From the NCBI RefSeq assembly GCF_027359395.1, contig NZ_CP114778.1, positions 744,001-808,000 of the forward strand: DNA of 64,000 nucleotides, in the 5' to 3' direction. The stretch comes from Prochlorococcus marinus str. MIT 1013 (GTDB taxonomy: Bacteria > Cyanobacteriota > Cyanobacteriia > PCC-6307 > Cyanobiaceae). The notes under the pieces were generated by a model, which saw only the letters and a list, made by a program, of their open reading frames with translations, had not been told where the DNA came from and did no database searches. This document shows positions 35,355 to 43,035 of the stretch, one piece after another. Position 1 is the stretch's first letter. The number at the start of each line of letters is the position of its first letter. The position numbers were made by a program, and so were the translations under genes.

Positions 35355-36224
35355 CTAATTTAAACAAAGAGGAAAATTTAGAGACTCTCTTTCTTCCAAC
35401 CAAGCCTCAGCAACTTTTCGAGCCAAAGATCGAATTCTTGCAATAATCTTGGTTCTTTCGGTAACAGATATAACTCCTCTTGCCTCTAATAAATTAAATG
35501 TATGGCTACATTTTAGAACATAGTCAAGGGATGGAGCAGGTAGTCTCTTTTCTATTAATTGATGAGCCTCCTCCTCATAAATTTCAAAAAGTTTTCTTAA
35601 ATTATCAGAGTTAGATTCTTCAAAATTATATTGACATTGACCCTTTTCAAAAGGAAGCCAGATATCACCATATTTATTATTTTTGTTCCAGGAAAGATCC
35701 CAAATACTTTCAACATTTTGCAAATACATTGCCAATCTTTCAAGGCCATAAGTGATCTCAATCGAGACAGGCTTGCAATCAAGACCACCACATTGTTGAA
35801 AATAAGTAAATTGGGTTACCTCCATACCATCAAGCCAAACTTCCCATCCCACTCCCCAAGCGCCTAAAGTTGGAGATTCCCAATTATCTTCAACAAATCG
35901 AATATCGTGTTCAGTAGGCGAAATCCCTAATGCTTCAAGCGAAGACAAATAAATTTCCTGTATGCCGTCGAGAGAAGGCTTAATAAGAACTTGATACTGA
36001 AAATAATGCTGTGCTCTATTGGGATTATCTCCATACCTACCATCAGTTGGTCTTCGACAGGGCTCAGGATAAGCGACAGCCCAAGGCTCCGGACCTATGG
36101 CTCTCAAAAAAGAATGAGGGCTCATTGTCCCTGCGCCCTTCTCTAAGTCATATGGCAGGAGCAGCAAACAACCTTTCTCACTCCAGAAATTATTGAGGTT
36201 AGAAATTATGTCCTGAAAGTACAC
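35355..36224 (-). CDS. glyQ: Glycyl-tRNA synthetase alpha chain
   Basis: The catalytic alpha subunit of the heterotetrameric bacterial GlyRS, which charges tRNA-Gly; the beta subunit gene is not in the window. I start at GTG 36224, giving (M)[17 protein letters not shown], the normal N-terminus, and 289 residues. An upstream ATG at 36281 would add 19 residues coded partly by the GGAGAAC repeat cluster, which argues against it. [40 protein letters not shown] and [18 protein letters not shown] are hallmark class II motifs. Confidence 0.96.
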
Positions 36225-36688: not shown

Positions 36689-38632
36689 ATGAAACAATCT
36701 GGTGATAAAAATCAAGGGGGAGAAGAAGTCTTTGAAGTAACTACATTCACAATTCCTTTTGCTTTAGAAGAAACTCAAGGAAATCTTACTATTAATACAA
36801 ATGCCCCTTCGAAACTTTCAAATGAAGAAATAATCAATCAAGCATTGCATTTTCATTCACAAGGAAATATTACAGAAGCAGCAAAATGCTATCAAAAGTT
36901 AATAAATAAAGGATTTAGGGAAGCATTTATTTTTTCTAATTATGGAGTCATTTTAAAAGATGTTGGCAAACTAAAAGAGGCTGAATTAGCACAACGCAAA
37001 GCAATAGAAATAAATCCATATTACGCAGAAGCACATTCAAATCTGGGAAATATATTGAGACATATTGGCGAATTGAAAGAAGCTGAATTATCAACTCGCA
37101 AAGCAATAAAAATCAAACCTGATTACGCAGAAGCATATTCAAATCTGGGAAATATATTGAGACATATTGGCAAATCAAAAGAAGCTGAATTATCAATTCG
37201 TAAAGCAATCGAAATAAAGCCTGATTTGAGCTCCGCTCATTTAAATCTTGGAATACTATTGAGAGAGAATGGTAACAATGAAGAAGCAATTAAAAGCCAA
37301 AAAAAAGCTCTAAAGTTAAATCCTTTTTCATCCTCTGCTAGAGCTGAATTGATTAGATCTAAAAAAGATATTTGCGATTGGAGTAATCAAGAAATAGAAA
37401 ATAATTGGCTAGAAAATATTGGAATTGAAGGAGAAGCTGTTAACCCATGGGATTTCTTATTTGTAGAAGATAATCCTATAAAAAGTTTAAAAAGATCCAA
37501 AAAATACTATAAAGATAACTATATCAAGAAATCCTTTAAAATAGCTTCTTTTAAAAATAAAAAAATTCATTTAGGTTACTTCTCTTCTGATTTTTACGAG
37601 CACGCAACAATGAATCTAATTGCTTCTATTCTAGAATTACATGATAAGTCTAAGTTCGAAATATATTTATACTCATTTACTCCTAAAGAAGATGAATATA
37701 CTGAAAGAGCTAAAGCATCTGGATGTTTTTTTAGAGATATAAAGAAATTAAATACTATTGAAAGTGTTAAATTAGCAAGAAGCGACAGGCTAGATATAGC
37801 AATTGATCTAAAAGGATATACTAAGAATAATAGAATGGATATCTTTTCTCATAGAGTAGCTCCAATACAAATAAATTATCTTGGATACCCCGGTTCACTT
37901 GGAGCAGATACTATTGATTATATTCTCTCAGATAAGATTATAATTCCTGAAGAATATGAAAAATTTTATTCTGAAAAAGTAATACGAATGCCAAGTTGTT
38001 ATCAATGTAACGACAATAAAAAAGAAATATCTATGGAACCTATTAAACGTAATGATTTTAAACTGCCTGAACAAGGATTTGTCTTTACATGTTTTAATGC
38101 TAATAGAAAAATATCACCAAATGAATTTAATATTTGGATGAGATTACTTAAAGAAATAAAAGGAAGTGTACTATGGTTATATCAATCTAATTTATTGGCA
38201 AGACAAAATTTATACAAAGAAGCCGAAATAAGAAATGTAGATACAAATAGATTGATTTTTGCTAATAAATTGTGCTTGGATAAACATTTAGCAAGATATT
38301 CTCTAGGAGACCTTGGACTTGATACATTTAATTGTAATGGTCATACAACGACATCAGATGCTTTATGGGCTGGCTTACCCGTGCTAACAAAAGTAGGCGA
38401 GAGCTTTGCTTCGAGAGTATCTGCCAGTTTGCTCACTTCTCTAGGAATCACGGAGCTGATTACTTACAATGAAAGTGAATATGAAGAAAAGGCTCTACAC
38501 ATTGCAAGGAACCCGGAAATACTTCTAAGACTGAAAAGTTTGGTAGCTAACTTAAGATATAAATCTCAACTTTTTAATTCGGAATTATTTACAAAAAGCC
38601 TAGAGAATAAATTGGAAAAACTTCTTATATAA
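36689..38632 (+). CDS. TPR-GT41 (O-GlcNAc-transferase/SPINDLY-like) glycosyltransferase
   Basis: A 647-residue protein with N-terminal TPRs (about 48-215) and a C-terminal GT41 catalytic region like that of eukaryotic OGT and SPINDLY. Diagnostic pieces are HLGYFSSDFYEHATMNLI, IAIDLKGYTKNNRMDIFSHRVAPIQINYLGYPG (in part), FTCFNANRKISPNEFNIWMRLL and HTTTSDALWAGLPVLTKVG. In bacteria such enzymes O-glycosylate proteins such as flagellins or unknown targets; the donor sugar and acceptor are unknown here. Two TPR units around 37030 and 37130 are almost identical in DNA. No membrane segment or signal is seen. It opens the accessory zone after glyQ. Confidence 0.88.
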   Translation: MKQSGDKNQGGEEVFEVTTFTIPFALEETQGNLTINTNAPSKLSNEEIINQALHFHSQGNITEAAKCYQKLINKGFREAFIFSNYGVILKDVGKLKEAELAQRKAIEINPYYAEAHSNLGNILRHIGELKEAELSTRKAIKIKPDYAEAYSNLGNILRHIGKSKEAELSIRKAIEIKPDLSSAHLNLGILLRENGNNEEAIKSQKKALKLNPFSSSARAELIRSKKDICDWSNQEIENNWLENIGIEGEAVNPWDFLFVEDNPIKSLKRSKKYYKDNYIKKSFKIASFKNKKIHLGYFSSDFYEHATMNLIASILELHDKSKFEIYLYSFTPKEDEYTERAKASGCFFRDIKKLNTIESVKLARSDRLDIAIDLKGYTKNNRMDIFSHRVAPIQINYLGYPGSLGADTIDYILSDKIIIPEEYEKFYSEKVIRMPSCYQCNDNKKEISMEPIKRNDFKLPEQGFVFTCFNANRKISPNEFNIWMRLLKEIKGSVLWLYQSNLLARQNLYKEAEIRNVDTNRLIFANKLCLDKHLARYSLGDLGLDTFNCNGHTTTSDALWAGLPVLTKVGESFASRVSASLLTSLGITELITYNESEYEEKALHIARNPEILLRLKSLVANLRYKSQLFNSELFTKSLENKLEKLLI

Positions 38633-38660: not shown

Positions 38661-38903
38661 ATTAAAAAAAGACAATCCAATAACAAGAAAAAAGGTCATA
38701 TTTCAAAAGCATTGCAATATTATAAAGAGTTAACAAATCAAGGCTTAAAAGATCACAGAGTATTTGTTAATCATGGAAACATATTGAAGAATCTTGGCAA
38801 ATAGAAAGACACGGAATTATCAACTCGCAAAGCAGTTGAACTCAATCATAATTTTGGTGCACACATTAGCCTAGGAGTTCCAATAAGACTAGAAAAAGAA
38901 TGA
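38661..38903 (+). pseudogene. Broken TPR paralogue of the GT41 protein
   Basis: In one frame this codes for KGHISKALQYYKELTNQG, then NHGNILKNLGK, an in-frame TAG at 38802, then ELSTRKAVELNHNFGAH and a stop at 38901. These pieces align with the TPR part of the gene just upstream (GNITEAAKCYQKLINKG and ELSTRKAIKIKPDY). No start codon or catalytic domain remains, so it is a decayed duplicate of the N-terminal region. Confidence 0.75.
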
Positions 38904-39390
38904 GTCTTAGTATCCATTGCTTTGAAGGTTTTATCTAATGCTGCACTGAAAATACATTAGTTTTGATAAAACTGTAATTTAAGGTTATAGGTATAACTTG
39001 ATTGGGCTAATTAACAAGAAGTATTGCAAAAGATCCTGGGCTTAAATAGCCAAACCGAGAAAATTAATTAAAAGCTAAATCAACTACTGAGCATTTAAGC
39101 TTGGGTAGTGAGACGAGGAAAAACGGATGACCATATAAGTATATATACTTAGAAGAGAATTATAGCTAAAATATTCAACAGTATAGTCACTCGATAAGCT
39201 CTATAAATACCACTAATAGCCATAACAAAAGCAAGATAAGTTCTGAAGAATTATATAAATATTCATTATGCAAACATTGTAGATTATTGATCTAATTATC
39301 TGTTGATTAGCCTTAATCTCAGCCGAGGCTAGCATAGTAAATTTATTTATAAATATAAATCATGCATAAATAAACAGAATTCCCCGACGA
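38904..39390. other. Gene-free, decayed-looking stretch
   Basis: AT-rich with stops in all frames; no tRNA, terminator or sizeable frame is seen. It probably contains the promoter of the small-gene operon that begins at 39391, since no gene reads into it. Confidence 0.5.
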
Positions 39391-40122
39391 ATGAAGAAGA
39401 AAATTAAAAAAAAATCAAGCCTAAGCAAGAAAATAGTACATCAGTATCCATTGTTCCGATTCGACACAAGGCTTATATTAAACAGGTATTTAGTCAAGTC
39501 TATGGACTTATCGCCAACCGAAGTGGTTGACCTAGAAAGTATTCCGCTCAATAACGAGGTCATCAGGGGCCTCGTACCCGCCCAGATAGAATTTGTAAAA
39601 GAGTCAGTTGTCGAAATAAATGAAGAACTAGGTTATGTTGGACAGTCACTTAGGGCAGTAGCGGCCAACCTCGCAGATATAAAGAGTAATATCAAGCCGG
39701 GGAATTGGAGGGCCTTCTTGAAGTCAGGCGCAATCAACTGTTCCGAAAGATTTGCTGTCGATCTTGTAAGCGCATACACAAATTGGCTGGGCGGCTCTGA
39801 TATAGACGACAATCTACTTGCCTCTCTAACGCCAAGATCGCTAGCACTTATGGGAAGCAAAGGAGTGACCGACAAAGAGCGTCAAAAGGTATTCCAGGCC
39901 GTTGAAAATGGTGAAAGAATGACAGAAGCAGCCGTACGAGTCCTGGTGAAAGGGAGTAAAAAAAAGAAGAATGCATATTCCAAAAAGACTGAAAGCGAAA
40001 AGGTAAAGTCCCTAAAAGATAAGATTGAAACTTATAGAAAGATAATTAATAATCTACAAGATGAGAACAAGAAACTAAGTATCTTGCTTTCAAATAGAGA
40101 AAAAATAGAACCTCTGGTTTAA
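39391..40122 (+). CDS. Unknown protein heading a five-gene operon, with C-terminal coiled coil
   Basis: A 243-residue basic protein. The N-terminus is Lys-rich. The middle (about 75-185) contains GQSLRAVAANLADIKSNIKP, GNWRAFLKSGAINCSERFA and AYTNWLGG, a pattern that reminds me of the DUF3102-type phage/plasmid domain (helix, Gly-x-Trp, helix-turn-helix-like). A poly-Lys linker leads to a coiled coil (about 205-240). Three lines counted by hand (39541-39720) give 84 of 180 G+C, about 47 percent, against 11 of 60 at 40981-41040, so it looks foreign. Its stop overlaps the next start by one base (TAATG). Confidence 0.65.
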   Translation: MKKKIKKKSSLSKKIVHQYPLFRFDTRLILNRYLVKSMDLSPTEVVDLESIPLNNEVIRGLVPAQIEFVKESVVEINEELGYVGQSLRAVAANLADIKSNIKPGNWRAFLKSGAINCSERFAVDLVSAYTNWLGGSDIDDNLLASLTPRSLALMGSKGVTDKERQKVFQAVENGERMTEAAVRVLVKGSKKKKNAYSKKTESEKVKSLKDKIETYRKIINNLQDENKKLSILLSNREKIEPLV

Positions 40123-40343
40123 TGAACAGTCCGCAATTACTTACTCTGCAATATCAATTTCAGAATATGAACCACATCAACTCATCTCCAGGAATGATTT
40201 TCCCAAAAAAAACCAAACTTTATCATATCGAGAATTCAAGTCAAAGAAAAACGTCAAAAATGCAAGAAAAGTTCAAGTCTAGCAAATCTCTCCTCGAAAT
40301 GGTGCCCATGGGAAATAGGCAAGTTAAAAATAGAGTGGGTTAA
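40122..40343 (+). CDS. Small unknown protein, operon gene 2
   Basis: A 73-residue basic protein rich in Asn, Gln, Ser and Lys with no recognised motif; it is probably flexible. Its ATG shares one base with the stop of the 39391 gene (TAATG), and its stop is 4 bp before the next start, so its reality rests mainly on operon position. Confidence 0.5.
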   Translation: MNSPQLLTLQYQFQNMNHINSSPGMIFPKKTKLYHIENSSQRKTSKMQEKFKSSKSLLEMVPMGNRQVKNRVG

Positions 40344-40347
40344 CTTC

Positions 40348-40509
40348 ATGAATATGAATTCAAAATCTAGAAATGGTTTTATCCATTTGTACAACCCCAA
40401 AGAAGAAGGGCTAGGATCTTACGATGTTAACTATATAAACGCCTACAAAAAAGATAAACATTTAAAAAGTATATATAAGAAAAACGACAAAGAGAGCTAC
40501 GCGGCATGA
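40348..40509 (+). CDS. 53-residue unknown protein, operon gene 3
   Basis: Read directly: it begins MNMNSKSRNGFIHLYNPKEE and ends NDKESYAA, 53 residues, with many Lys, Tyr and Asn. The start is 4 bp after gene 2 and its TGA overlaps the ATG of gene 4 as ATGA at 40506-40509. That packing supports a genuine short gene. No family is recognised. Confidence 0.55.
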   Translation: MNMNSKSRNGFIHLYNPKEEGLGSYDVNYINAYKKDKHLKSIYKKNDKESYAA

Positions 40510-40826
40510 TTACATTCATCAGAAGTCTTTCAGAGTTAATGGCAATAACAGAGCCGAGAGACAAACAAACGAATCTCTCGATACATAATGAGATCATCAG
40601 CACAACAATGGATAGTGCTCAAAGGAAGAGGTATATAAGATCACTAAACAAAAAAGGAGTCGATCTGCCTACCATACCTAAAACAATAAGAAATAAATGG
40701 ATCAAGAATAAAGAAGCTTTATCAAAATTTATTGATACATTAGATTATAACAATCAAATACAATCATCATATGATCTCACTTTATTAGAAAGACAACAAC
40801 AGAGAAACCAAAAGGATGTTGCCTAG
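40506..40826 (+). CDS. Small unknown basic protein, operon gene 4
   Basis: A 106-residue helical, basic protein. The central segment MDSAQRKRYIRSLNKKGVDLP and IPKTIRNKWIKNKEALSKFID could be a small nucleic-acid-binding helical domain, but no family is recognised. It starts by ATGA overlap with gene 3 and ends 2 bp before gene 5. Confidence 0.6.
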   Translation: MITFIRSLSELMAITEPRDKQTNLSIHNEIISTTMDSAQRKRYIRSLNKKGVDLPTIPKTIRNKWIKNKEALSKFIDTLDYNNQIQSSYDLTLLERQQQRNQKDVA

Positions 40827-40828
40827 TT

Positions 40829-41170
40829 ATGAATAAAAACAAAGTCATCTATCTCATAGAATATTTATCAATGGGCTTAGTATTATCATATTTTATTATT
40901 CACAATATCTATTTTGTTTTAATTGGAATTACTTTTTCAATATACTTGATTAATATTGAGCTAATTAATAGTATTAAAGGATCGATCTATAAAAGTCTGG
41001 ATATAAAAAATATATCTAGAAACTTAATAAAAAACATTAAGGAAGTGAAATCTAATTCTAATGAGATAAAAATAACTACAGAAGAAAGCAAGCTTACATT
41101 AGTTGAAGCAATAGAAGAATTTGGATTTATACCATCACAAGATACGCATAATGATATTAATGGTGCATAA
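40829..41170 (+). CDS. Small membrane protein, operon gene 5
   Basis: A 113-residue protein with one long or two short hydrophobic segments (about 9-50: LIEYLSMGLVLSYFIIHN, then IYFVLIGITFSIYLINIEL), followed by a charged Lys/Glu-rich cytoplasmic-type tail. It begins 2 bp after gene 4, so it is the last gene of the operon. A membrane partner at the end of an operon of small soluble proteins is notable, but no function can be assigned. Confidence 0.6.
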   Translation: MNKNKVIYLIEYLSMGLVLSYFIIHNIYFVLIGITFSIYLINIELINSIKGSIYKSLDIKNISRNLIKNIKEVKSNSNEIKITTEESKLTLVEAIEEFGFIPSQDTHNDINGA

Positions 41171-41469: not shown

Positions 41470-42032
41470 AATATGTATTTGAAGGATAAAATCTACAACC
41501 ATAACTTATAAATTTACTAATAAAACATTTAATATGATCAATAAATTATCTTATATGATAGAAGGTTCTAAAATTTAATATATGAATGTTGACAATTAAA
41601 AGAAGTCTTAATTATCAAAAATACTATTCTAAATAATTCACTATATATACTTAAACACAAAAAATATATATAAATATTTTAAAATTGAGTCTTTTATATA
41701 TTTATTTGCATTTAGGTGCTTCAACTATCTTACATCAATCAAATTAGTTTGTAAATTTAAATTGAGATTATATTATATTATTTAAAAGAAACTATTAATC
41801 AAATAAATTACCTTACATAAAAGCATTAAATTGGCCAACACAAACAAGGCAGAGAATTGACAAGTAGTAATACAGATGTATTATAGTGCATTACGTTATT
41901 CGGATCGAAGAATCTCAATTTTTTCCACCCGCTCTAACAACATCATTTAGTTAAAAAACATGCTTAATAGAACGCTCAATAAAGGCACGGGGTTCTTCTC
42001 GTATTTAGTCAACCAATTAACTGGAGTATCTA
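41470..42032. other. AT-rich gene-free stretch
   Basis: From 41470 to about 41870 it is almost pure A/T with stops in every frame; no gene, RNA or strong hairpin is recognised. From about 41880 G+C rises and a frame of 56 codons (41960-42130) appears, overlapping the 47-codon frame listed separately; only one, if either, is likely to be real. Confidence 0.5.
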
Positions 42033-42176
42033 ATGGAATCATCAAGCACTTCAAGCTGGAAATCAATAACGAGCCTAAAGCTTTCAAGCGGACTAGGAAT
42101 AGGAACAGAAGCCCTCATAACAAGATCTAAAAGAGAGTTAGTTGAATTTTATTGGACAAATCGAAAGCGGTATTAA
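42033..42176 (+). CDS. Possible 47-residue small protein
   Basis: An ATG preceded by GGAG seven bases upstream opens a 47-codon frame starting MESSSTSSWKSITSLKLSSG and ending FYWTNRKRY. The local G+C is higher than in the surroundings, which favours coding, but a frame of 56 codons overlaps it in another phase. No family is recognised and expression is unproven. Confidence 0.3.
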   Translation: MESSSTSSWKSITSLKLSSGLGIGTEALITRSKRELVEFYWTNRKRY

Positions 42177-42585: not shown

Positions 42586-43035
42586 TTACTCAAGCTTTTC
42601 TTCTTCATCGGGCTTTGCTTCTTCAACAGGCCTTTCTTCTTCAACAGGCCTTTCTTCTTCAACAGGCCTTTCTTCTTCAACAGGCCTTTCTTCTTTAACA
42701 GGCTTTGCTTCTTCAACAGGCTTTGCTTCTTCAACAGGCTTTGCTTCTTCAACAGGCCTTTCTTCTTCAACAGGCTTTGCTTCTTCAACAGGCCTTTCTT
42801 CTTCAATCGGCTTAATTTCAACTATGTTTTCAATTGAAGAAGAGGTCTCAGGGTTCGTAAAAATCTGAGAACCCTCCTGAACCGAATCAGATTCAGAGTC
42901 CTTAAGTAAAAACTTTAAAACATATCGAAGAGAGACAAACAAAGCTATTGGGAGGAAAAGTCCTAAAAGCAATTTATAGAGGATTATTCCTATTCCAAGG
43001 ACACCAATAGCAATAAGAATGTTCTTCCTGTTCAT
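42586..43035 (-). CDS. Membrane-anchored Pro/Glu hexapeptide-repeat protein
   Basis: A 149-residue protein with an N-terminal membrane segment (about 5-35, ILIAIGVLGIGIILYKLLLG), an acidic spacer and twelve tandem six-residue repeats (PVEEAK or PVEEER) up to the C-terminus. Alternating acid and Lys/Arg suggests an extended, rigid charged rod on one face of the membrane, in the style of TonB-like spacers, although no C-terminal domain follows. No family is recognised. Confidence 0.7.
   Translation of the reverse strand: MNRKNILIAIGVLGIGIILYKLLLGLFLPIALFVSLRYVLKFLLKDSESDSVQEGSQIFTNPETSSSIENIVEIKPIEEERPVEEAKPVEEERPVEEAKPVEEAKPVEEAKPVKEERPVEEERPVEEERPVEEERPVEEAKPDEEEKLE
42595..42810 (-). repeat. 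Twelve-copy 18-bp tandem repeat
   Basis: Twelve units of 18 bp, coding PVEEAK or PVEEER variants, run without interruption. The two unit types differ mainly in the last two codons and are intermixed, which points to slippage or unequal exchange. Because 18 is divisible by three, the other frames stay open too, creating false overlapping frames. Confidence 0.95.

Follow-up and report, generated by a model that had tools for sequence, protein, structure and literature searches.

A conserved microprotein operon with a candidate LexA box beside glyQ in Prochlorococcus

Gene content and conservation of the locus

The locus lies in a 64-kb stretch of DNA of Prochlorococcus marinus MIT 1013, which was analysed as a whole and is referred to in the following as the window; the host genome is complete (2.05 Mb). 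It comprises five closely spaced genes and, 104 bp downstream of the fifth, a sixth conserved gene on the same strand.

39502 to 40122, + strand: gene 1 (product p1), 206 aa, predicted SopB/KorB-like DNA-binding domain and C-terminal coiled coil, proposed autoregulator
40167 to 40343, + strand: gene 2 (p2), microprotein of 58 aa, ATG and frame conserved in relatives
40348 to 40509, + strand: gene 3 (p3), 53 aa, core HLYNPKxEGLGSYDVxYINAYKK, C-terminal -AA
40506 to 40826, + strand: gene 4 (p4), 106 aa, motifs RSLSELMAIT, SGQRKRY and LDYNNQIQSSYDLTLLERQ, C-terminal -VA
40829 to 41170, + strand: gene 5 (p5), small membrane protein of 113 aa, C-terminal LVExIEExGFIPS, mostly ending in -AA
41275 to 41469, + strand: gene 6 (p6), 64 aa, conserved DQLAIAQEYKEWINC, recognized by its dN/dS and by homologues in elements

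The five frames listed in an earlier, sequence-only reading of this DNA (from 39391, 40122, 40348, 40506 and 40829) are all present, and the starts of the first two have been revised. In about half of the relatives an in-frame stop falls between aa 12 and 38 of the frame first assigned to gene 1, and a conserved promoter fills this stretch, where the DNA is conserved and the protein frame is not; gene 1 therefore starts at 39502, i.e. at aa 38 of the longer frame, and not at 39391. Likewise, the ATG of gene 2 that is conserved in the alignment of relatives lies at 40167 instead of 40122, so that the TAATG overlap described between genes 1 and 2, which is not common to the relatives, is no conserved feature, the real gap in the window being 44 bp. 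The other junctions (a 4-bp gap between genes 2 and 3, the ATGA overlap of genes 3 and 4, and a 2-bp gap between genes 4 and 5) were described correctly and are kept in nearly all relatives.

Of 40 same-genus genomes, 27 contain an orthologue of gene 1 with its frame kept, and the frame, order and spacing of genes 3-5 and of gene 6 are kept in up to 27 relatives. The common order begins with glyQ as the left core gene; the module follows after 0.45 to about 9 kb, and right core DNA sets in at about 41900. Nine of the 13 genomes without p1 also lack glyQ; of the remaining four, three have contigs that break off no more than about 700 bp past glyQ towards the module, while the last (G017) runs for about 2.9 kb after glyQ, longer inserts being found at the same place in other genomes. 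As the genomes without p1 either lack glyQ or have a short contig past it, no empty site was seen in the 40 same-genus genomes, with glyQ and contig ends checked.

The median dN/dS of p1 to p6 is 0.04, 0.50, 0.22, 0.25, 0.41 and 0.10, respectively, with weak constraint on p2 and moderate constraint on p5. Thus, the loss of short frames in relatives, which had been named beforehand as what would speak against the operon, is not found for genes 1, 3, 4, 5 and 6; gene 2 is the weakest frame, with a dN/dS above 1 in four of the five listed pairs of window and relative. Judged by these alignments, the operon is real and under selection. The pairwise distances of p1 plus p4 follow those of glyQ with a Mantel r of 0.53, a value reached in 23 of 2000 permutations, and this is modestly compatible with vertical descent accompanied by some recombination.

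The fall in G+C along the operon had been counted exactly (84/180 over 39541-39720, 11/60 over 40981-41040). Because the orthologues show it too, with medians of 44% for gene 1 and 21% for gene 5, the gradient is, on this comparison, old and no patchwork, and is perhaps due to expression-related codon choice. The third positions of p1 are G+C rich for the host genome.

Promoter architecture and properties of the encoded proteins

The region upstream of gene 1, and a second region to the right of gene 6, carry the following features.

39435 to 39448, + strand: candidate LexA (SOS) box AGTACATCAGTATC, match to a position weight matrix (PWM) at a constant position
39451 to 39456, + strand: -35-like TTGTTC, conserved
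39451 to 39469, + strand: candidate dyad operator TTGTTCCGATTCGACACAA, 19 bp, over the -35 and the spacer
39474 to 39479, + strand: -10-like TATATT, conserved
41869 to 41882, + strand: second candidate LexA box AATACAGATGTATT, top site with the symmetrized PWM, at the start of a second putative SOS unit
41960 to 42130, + strand: ORF A, 56 aa in the window, overlapping ORF B, a frame in most but not all relatives
42033 to 42176, + strand: ORF B, 47 aa in the window and 50-68 aa in most relatives, ELVEFYWTNRKRF, kept in nearly all checked

A conserved block consisting of AGTACATCAGTATC, TTGTTC, a 17-bp spacer and TATATT precedes gene 1. Column identity is 0.83-0.98 at -69 to -23, and 0.92-0.98 in the operator, as against about 0.46 further upstream and 0.68 at the third positions of gene 1. 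A recombination boundary was considered as the cause of the sharp conservation edge upstream and dropped; since the spacing to the next block is nearly constant and the edge meets the LexA box and the operator, it is better seen as the border of an unconstrained AT-rich spacer.

With a PWM built from 42 published cyanobacterial LexA sites (PMC3091678), 39435-39448 is the best LexA site of the window (14.9 bits, as GATACTGATGTACT; 11.0 and 14.9 bits on the two strands). It lies at -67 from the start of gene 1 in 28 of 28 orthologues, abuts the -35, and matches the type of the published cyanobacterial consensus (AGTACWNWTGTACT, or RGTACNNNDGTWCB; PMC3091678), which several orthologues fit fully. 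Boxes of the same type stand at recA of the host genome and, before the ATG, at its lexA gene (G000:C1:899788-899979; PF01726, E 2.8e-22). From this pattern of sites, it is likely that LexA controls the operon. When the PWM is symmetrized, 41869-41882 becomes the top site of the window and the p1 box the second, well above the third; the module is thus flanked by the two highest-ranking LexA sites of the window. A box is found at the same place as 41869-41882 in nearly all relatives checked, and ORF A and ORF B, small frames overlapping in different registers downstream of it, probably belong to a second SOS microprotein unit.

Elsewhere in the host genome, two paralogous genes of 66-76 aa (L053, G000:C1 near 435080, and L058, near 1538070) end in ...KKHVQLAFA and ...NTHVQLAFA; a LexA box that is a perfect palindrome marks the 5' end of both. 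To the right of ORF B, the minus strand of the window at 42586-43035 encodes a 149-aa protein with PVEEAKPVEEERPVEE-type repeats, a stretch that aligns in several registers in relatives.

TTGTTCCGATTCGTCACAA, the operator consensus of the genus, forms an imperfect dyad. If up to two mismatches are allowed, there is one copy per genus genome, always at gene 1, and no copy that good occurs in the genus genomes without assembled p1. The AlphaFold model of p1 (pLDDT 85 at full length, 93.8 for the domain alone) is all-helical with a C-terminal coiled coil. In VIA-align comparisons, all with Z below 8 for the domain, it matches the DNA-binding domain of SopB (Z 6.2, 104 aligned residues) and KorB with its operator DNA (Z 5.6, 96 aligned), and these alignments span nearly the whole p1 domain; Raf1, a cyanobacterial protein for which we know of no DNA role, scores Z 5.7, and the next unrelated row 3.8. 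Full-length p1 matches Spo0J with Z 5.8. Foldseek searches of the PDB with full p1 and with the domain gave nothing below E 1, and a profile search of PDB sequences gave nothing. Taken together, the model suggests a SopB/KorB-like DNA-binding fold. Of 24 p1 members, one reaches E 0.0066 with DUF3102 (PF11300), a value short of the gathering score, and L067, distantly homologous to p1, clearly belongs to DUF3102 (E 1e-11). Profile searches of the module proteins against Pfam, PHROGs, NCBIfam and PADLOC, proposed at the outset, otherwise returned only noise, and a search of Rfam returned nothing useful. Since a predicted DNA-binding fold is encoded behind a unique dyad at its own promoter, autoregulation is the most economical role for p1, and it is probable that p1 controls its own operon.

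The microproteins share a feature at their C-termini. An AA or VA ending is found in 28 of 28 p3, 24 of 28 p4, 19 of 27 p5 and 12 of 26 p2 sequences, the background being 4 of 433 ORFs of at least 150 aa (0.9%). The tmRNA tag of the host genome, ANNIVSFSRQTAPVAA, ends in VAA, and ClpXP is known to read ssrA C-termini as well as the C-degron exposed by LexA cleavage (PMC5742171). Because of this resemblance, a short life of the -AA/-VA microproteins is likely, and the tails themselves would rather probably act as degrons. As to the single proteins, p2 of relatives has 53-61 aa and a GITxxLLEKYKPK motif that has diverged in MIT 1013, and the hydropathy of p5 peaks near residue 23, at about 2.2; p6, which does not end in -AA, is probably the last member of the module, possibly with a promoter of its own. 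The LexA/operator promoter, the common -AA/-VA tails and the element homologues described below are absent from the sequence-only reading.

Homologous loci, mobile elements and the glyQ hotspot

In a family-wide search, p1 relatives were found in 42 of 400 genomes, and outside the genus they are sporadic. A search for the same gene order in phages, plasmids and islands of other picocyanobacteria had been suggested in the sequence-only reading: tblastn of p1 found no match in phages and plasmids, whereas integrase-bearing loci of other picocyanobacteria do carry the family. The single match in a viral contig (L068) was spurious on inspection, domain alignment finding none in viral contigs. A tyrosine integrase lies beside p1 at L050, L061, L066, L114 and L124 and is also present in the L063 element; L039 retains integrase fragments. 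L063 (1552-10073, G026:C1) is an 8-9-kb element from a complete genome of the Prochlorococcus genus, where it separates glyQ from the module; the element encodes a tyrosine integrase of 517 aa, a p1 homologue, a DUF1651 gene and a single-subunit T7-like RNA polymerase of 813 aa (phrog_414, E 1.5e-137), part of whose gene recurs in the related element L066, and could be prophage- or satellite-like.

The promoter plan is also shared. Non-core p1 promoters present a LexA box, 3-6 bp and then a dyad, with some loci (L064, L065, L051, L115, L119 and L120) having a dyad and no clear LexA box. The element operators are close to GGACGA-N1/2-TCGTCC and occupy, in the homologous loci, the place of the core dyad; a dyad score of at least 10/12 is reached at most non-core p1 loci as against 1 of 250 control windows, and among 60 genomes searched only one has the perfect element dyad TGGACGA-N-TCGTCCA, which there immediately precedes a p1 homologue. 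Downstream of non-core p1 genes, AA/VA tails end 16 of 49 small ORFs on the same strand and 0 of 39 on the opposite one.

Other module genes recur as well: a p2 homologue follows the element p1 in L061, with a score reached in 0 of 3320 shuffles, the elements L066 and L061 have p6 homologues, and element membrane proteins share the QRKRY motif with p4 (0 of 3320 shuffles). Peptides like p3 in L108 and L118, and a likeness to the p4 N-terminus in L050 and L115, were suggestive by eye and insignificant after multiple testing. In the p1 tree the genus copies group together (97/99); next to them stand L108 and L050, the latter an integrase-bearing element from a different genus. The link to mobile elements proposed in the sequence-only reading is thus borne out by gene 1 homologues that adjoin tyrosine integrases and small downstream genes under the same promoter plan, and an origin of the module from elements is likely, slightly less so than its control by LexA.

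The left neighbour of the module provides a further connection, for which two features have to be considered.

36200 to 36223, no strand assigned: attB-like site TAGAAATTATGTCCTGAAAGTACA, in the 5' end of glyQ
38933 to 38956, no strand assigned: possible degenerate right att copy, 15/24 matches with CTGAAAATACA exact, within chance range when taken alone

Genomes without an insert have a single TAGAAATTATGTCCTGAAAGTACA copy about 480 bp left of p1. Inserts at glyQ vary in length and content among relatives; at the end of the insert towards p1, a second att copy is good in G026, which carries the 8-9-kb element, and in G018, and fair in G039. By these repeats, the 5' end of glyQ is an attachment site and a hotspot bordering the module. 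The window has a perfect left copy, and the degenerate right one proposed here would close a 2.7-kb insert with a GT41 gene, so that the GT41 glycosyltransferase region at 36.2-38.9 kb is plausibly an insert at the glyQ site. Within this variable gap, a TPR glycosyltransferase gene (GT41, OGT-like) occupies 36689-38632 and is followed by the apparent remnant of a broken TPR gene (about 38680-38940). Right of the module no att repeat above chance was found, nor is there a tyrosine recombinase beside the window module.

Interpretation and relation to known systems

With a probability of roughly 0.6, the locus is a vertically inherited, element-derived SOS operon of the genus core that produces a self-limited pulse of unstable microproteins. 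In the chain of events that we infer, in which LexA binding in vivo, autorepression, degron function and a physiological effect are deduced steps and not observations, the operon would go back to a family of modules carried by integrative elements of picocyanobacteria. On damage to the DNA, LexA would cleave itself and leave the box at 39435-39448, whereupon the operon would be transcribed; p1, as the first product, would bind the 19-bp dyad over the -35 and the spacer and switch its own promoter off. The outcome would be a short pulse of the four microproteins p2-p5, one of them membrane-bound, whose ssrA-like -AA/-VA tails would target them for fast degradation, with ClpXP as the probable protease. 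Where the same promoter sits in an integrase-bearing element, it would tie that element to damage suffered by the host. The pulse might transiently restrain cell division or replication, by a logic like that of YneA, SidA and SulA, although such a brake is a doubtful part of the scheme. A wider proposal, which we hold tentatively and at a little under even odds, is that the chromosomes and integrative elements of picocyanobacteria share an undescribed SOS effector system, and that one streamlined genus, Prochlorococcus, has kept a copy as a DNA-damage checkpoint of its own; in the same tentative reading, the system would consist of a LexA box and a private KorB-like autoregulator, leading to a self-limited pulse of degradation-tagged microproteins.

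The best placed of the alternatives, although unlikely, is that of a resident module which an earlier element left behind and which now serves immunity or control, being retained because p1 or a microprotein governs the integration or excision of related elements at the neighbouring glyQ site. The module does border an integration hotspot, element p1 genes do adjoin integrases, and in G026 the space between glyQ and the module holds an element that brings a p1 homologue, an integrase and a T7-like RNA polymerase of its own. However, the core operator TTCCGATTCGTCA differs from the element GGACGA-N-TCGTCC (8/12 positions), and direct cross-repression is therefore doubtful; moreover, intact modules are found beside an element in G026 and beside element remnants in G036.

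Slightly less probable is a housekeeping operon with an unrelated constitutive role, whose palindrome is bound by a repressor other than LexA. Cyanobacterial genomes contain other LexA-like sites without proven LexA binding (PMC3091678), and some homologous loci have no LexA box, but the box of gene 1 is of the type found at recA and lexA, keeps a constant spacing and abuts the -35. An anti-phage or abortive-infection function, by which DNA damage from a phage would trigger a membrane-active microprotein that stops the cell, is less probable again: the SOS-type promoter, the small membrane protein p5 and carriage by elements would suit it, whereas the earlier suggestion of a defence module finds no support in PADLOC, which gave matches only at noise level (E 0.005-0.013), the module is absent from the phages, plasmids and viral contigs searched, and strict genus-wide conservation at a single locus with low dN/dS is unlike turnover-prone defence genes. 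The role in element partition or maintenance that had also been put forward is very improbable, for, despite the predicted SopB/KorB-like fold, p1 has only about 37 residues before its DNA-binding domain, i.e. no room for the ParB CTPase domain, and no Pfam ParB match, no parA was recognized among the ORFs adjoining it, the operator is single and lies within the promoter, and the module was not found on plasmids.

For the SOS operon as preferred here, the nearest framework is the cyanobacterial LexA regulon (Li et al. 2010, PMC3091678), with which it shares a 14-bp palindrome of the same type at the promoter; the difference is that the palindrome here precedes a set of unnamed microprotein genes with the gene of a predicted ParB/KorB-like regulator at their head, and in the main text of that study we saw no reference to the operon. 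The KorB/SopB/ParB family resembles p1 in predicted domain fold, at a sequence identity of only 10-14%, and in the use of a 13-14-bp dyad operator as for KorB, but p1 lacks the N-terminal CTPase and a recognized ParA partner and has a C-terminal coiled coil. A likeness to DUF3102 (PF11300) is provided through the distant homologue L067, the p1 members themselves missing the gathering score. Tycheposons, which Hackl reportedly described in Prochlorococcus in 2023, and other tyrosine-recombinase integrative elements offer a further parallel, p1-family genes being found beside tyrosine recombinases in picocyanobacterial elements; in contrast, no recombinase belongs to the module of the window, which always occupies one and the same locus, and the hotspot is glyQ and not a tRNA gene. 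One element module would have turned into a fixed chromosomal operon beside an integration hotspot, and mobile elements of a streamlined ocean bacterium would be tied to the damage response of their host.

To our knowledge, neither an SOS inhibitor of cell division nor a microprotein acting as SOS effector has been assigned in Prochlorococcus, and the operon represents a concrete candidate for such an effector, with a precise promoter. Elsewhere, TisB, SulA, SidA and YneA are SOS-induced, short-lived microproteins. The products of the operon are like them in predicted LexA control, in small size, in including one membrane protein and in a putative degradation tag; they show no sequence relation to them, and differ in that four microproteins are encoded together in one operon with a dedicated regulator.
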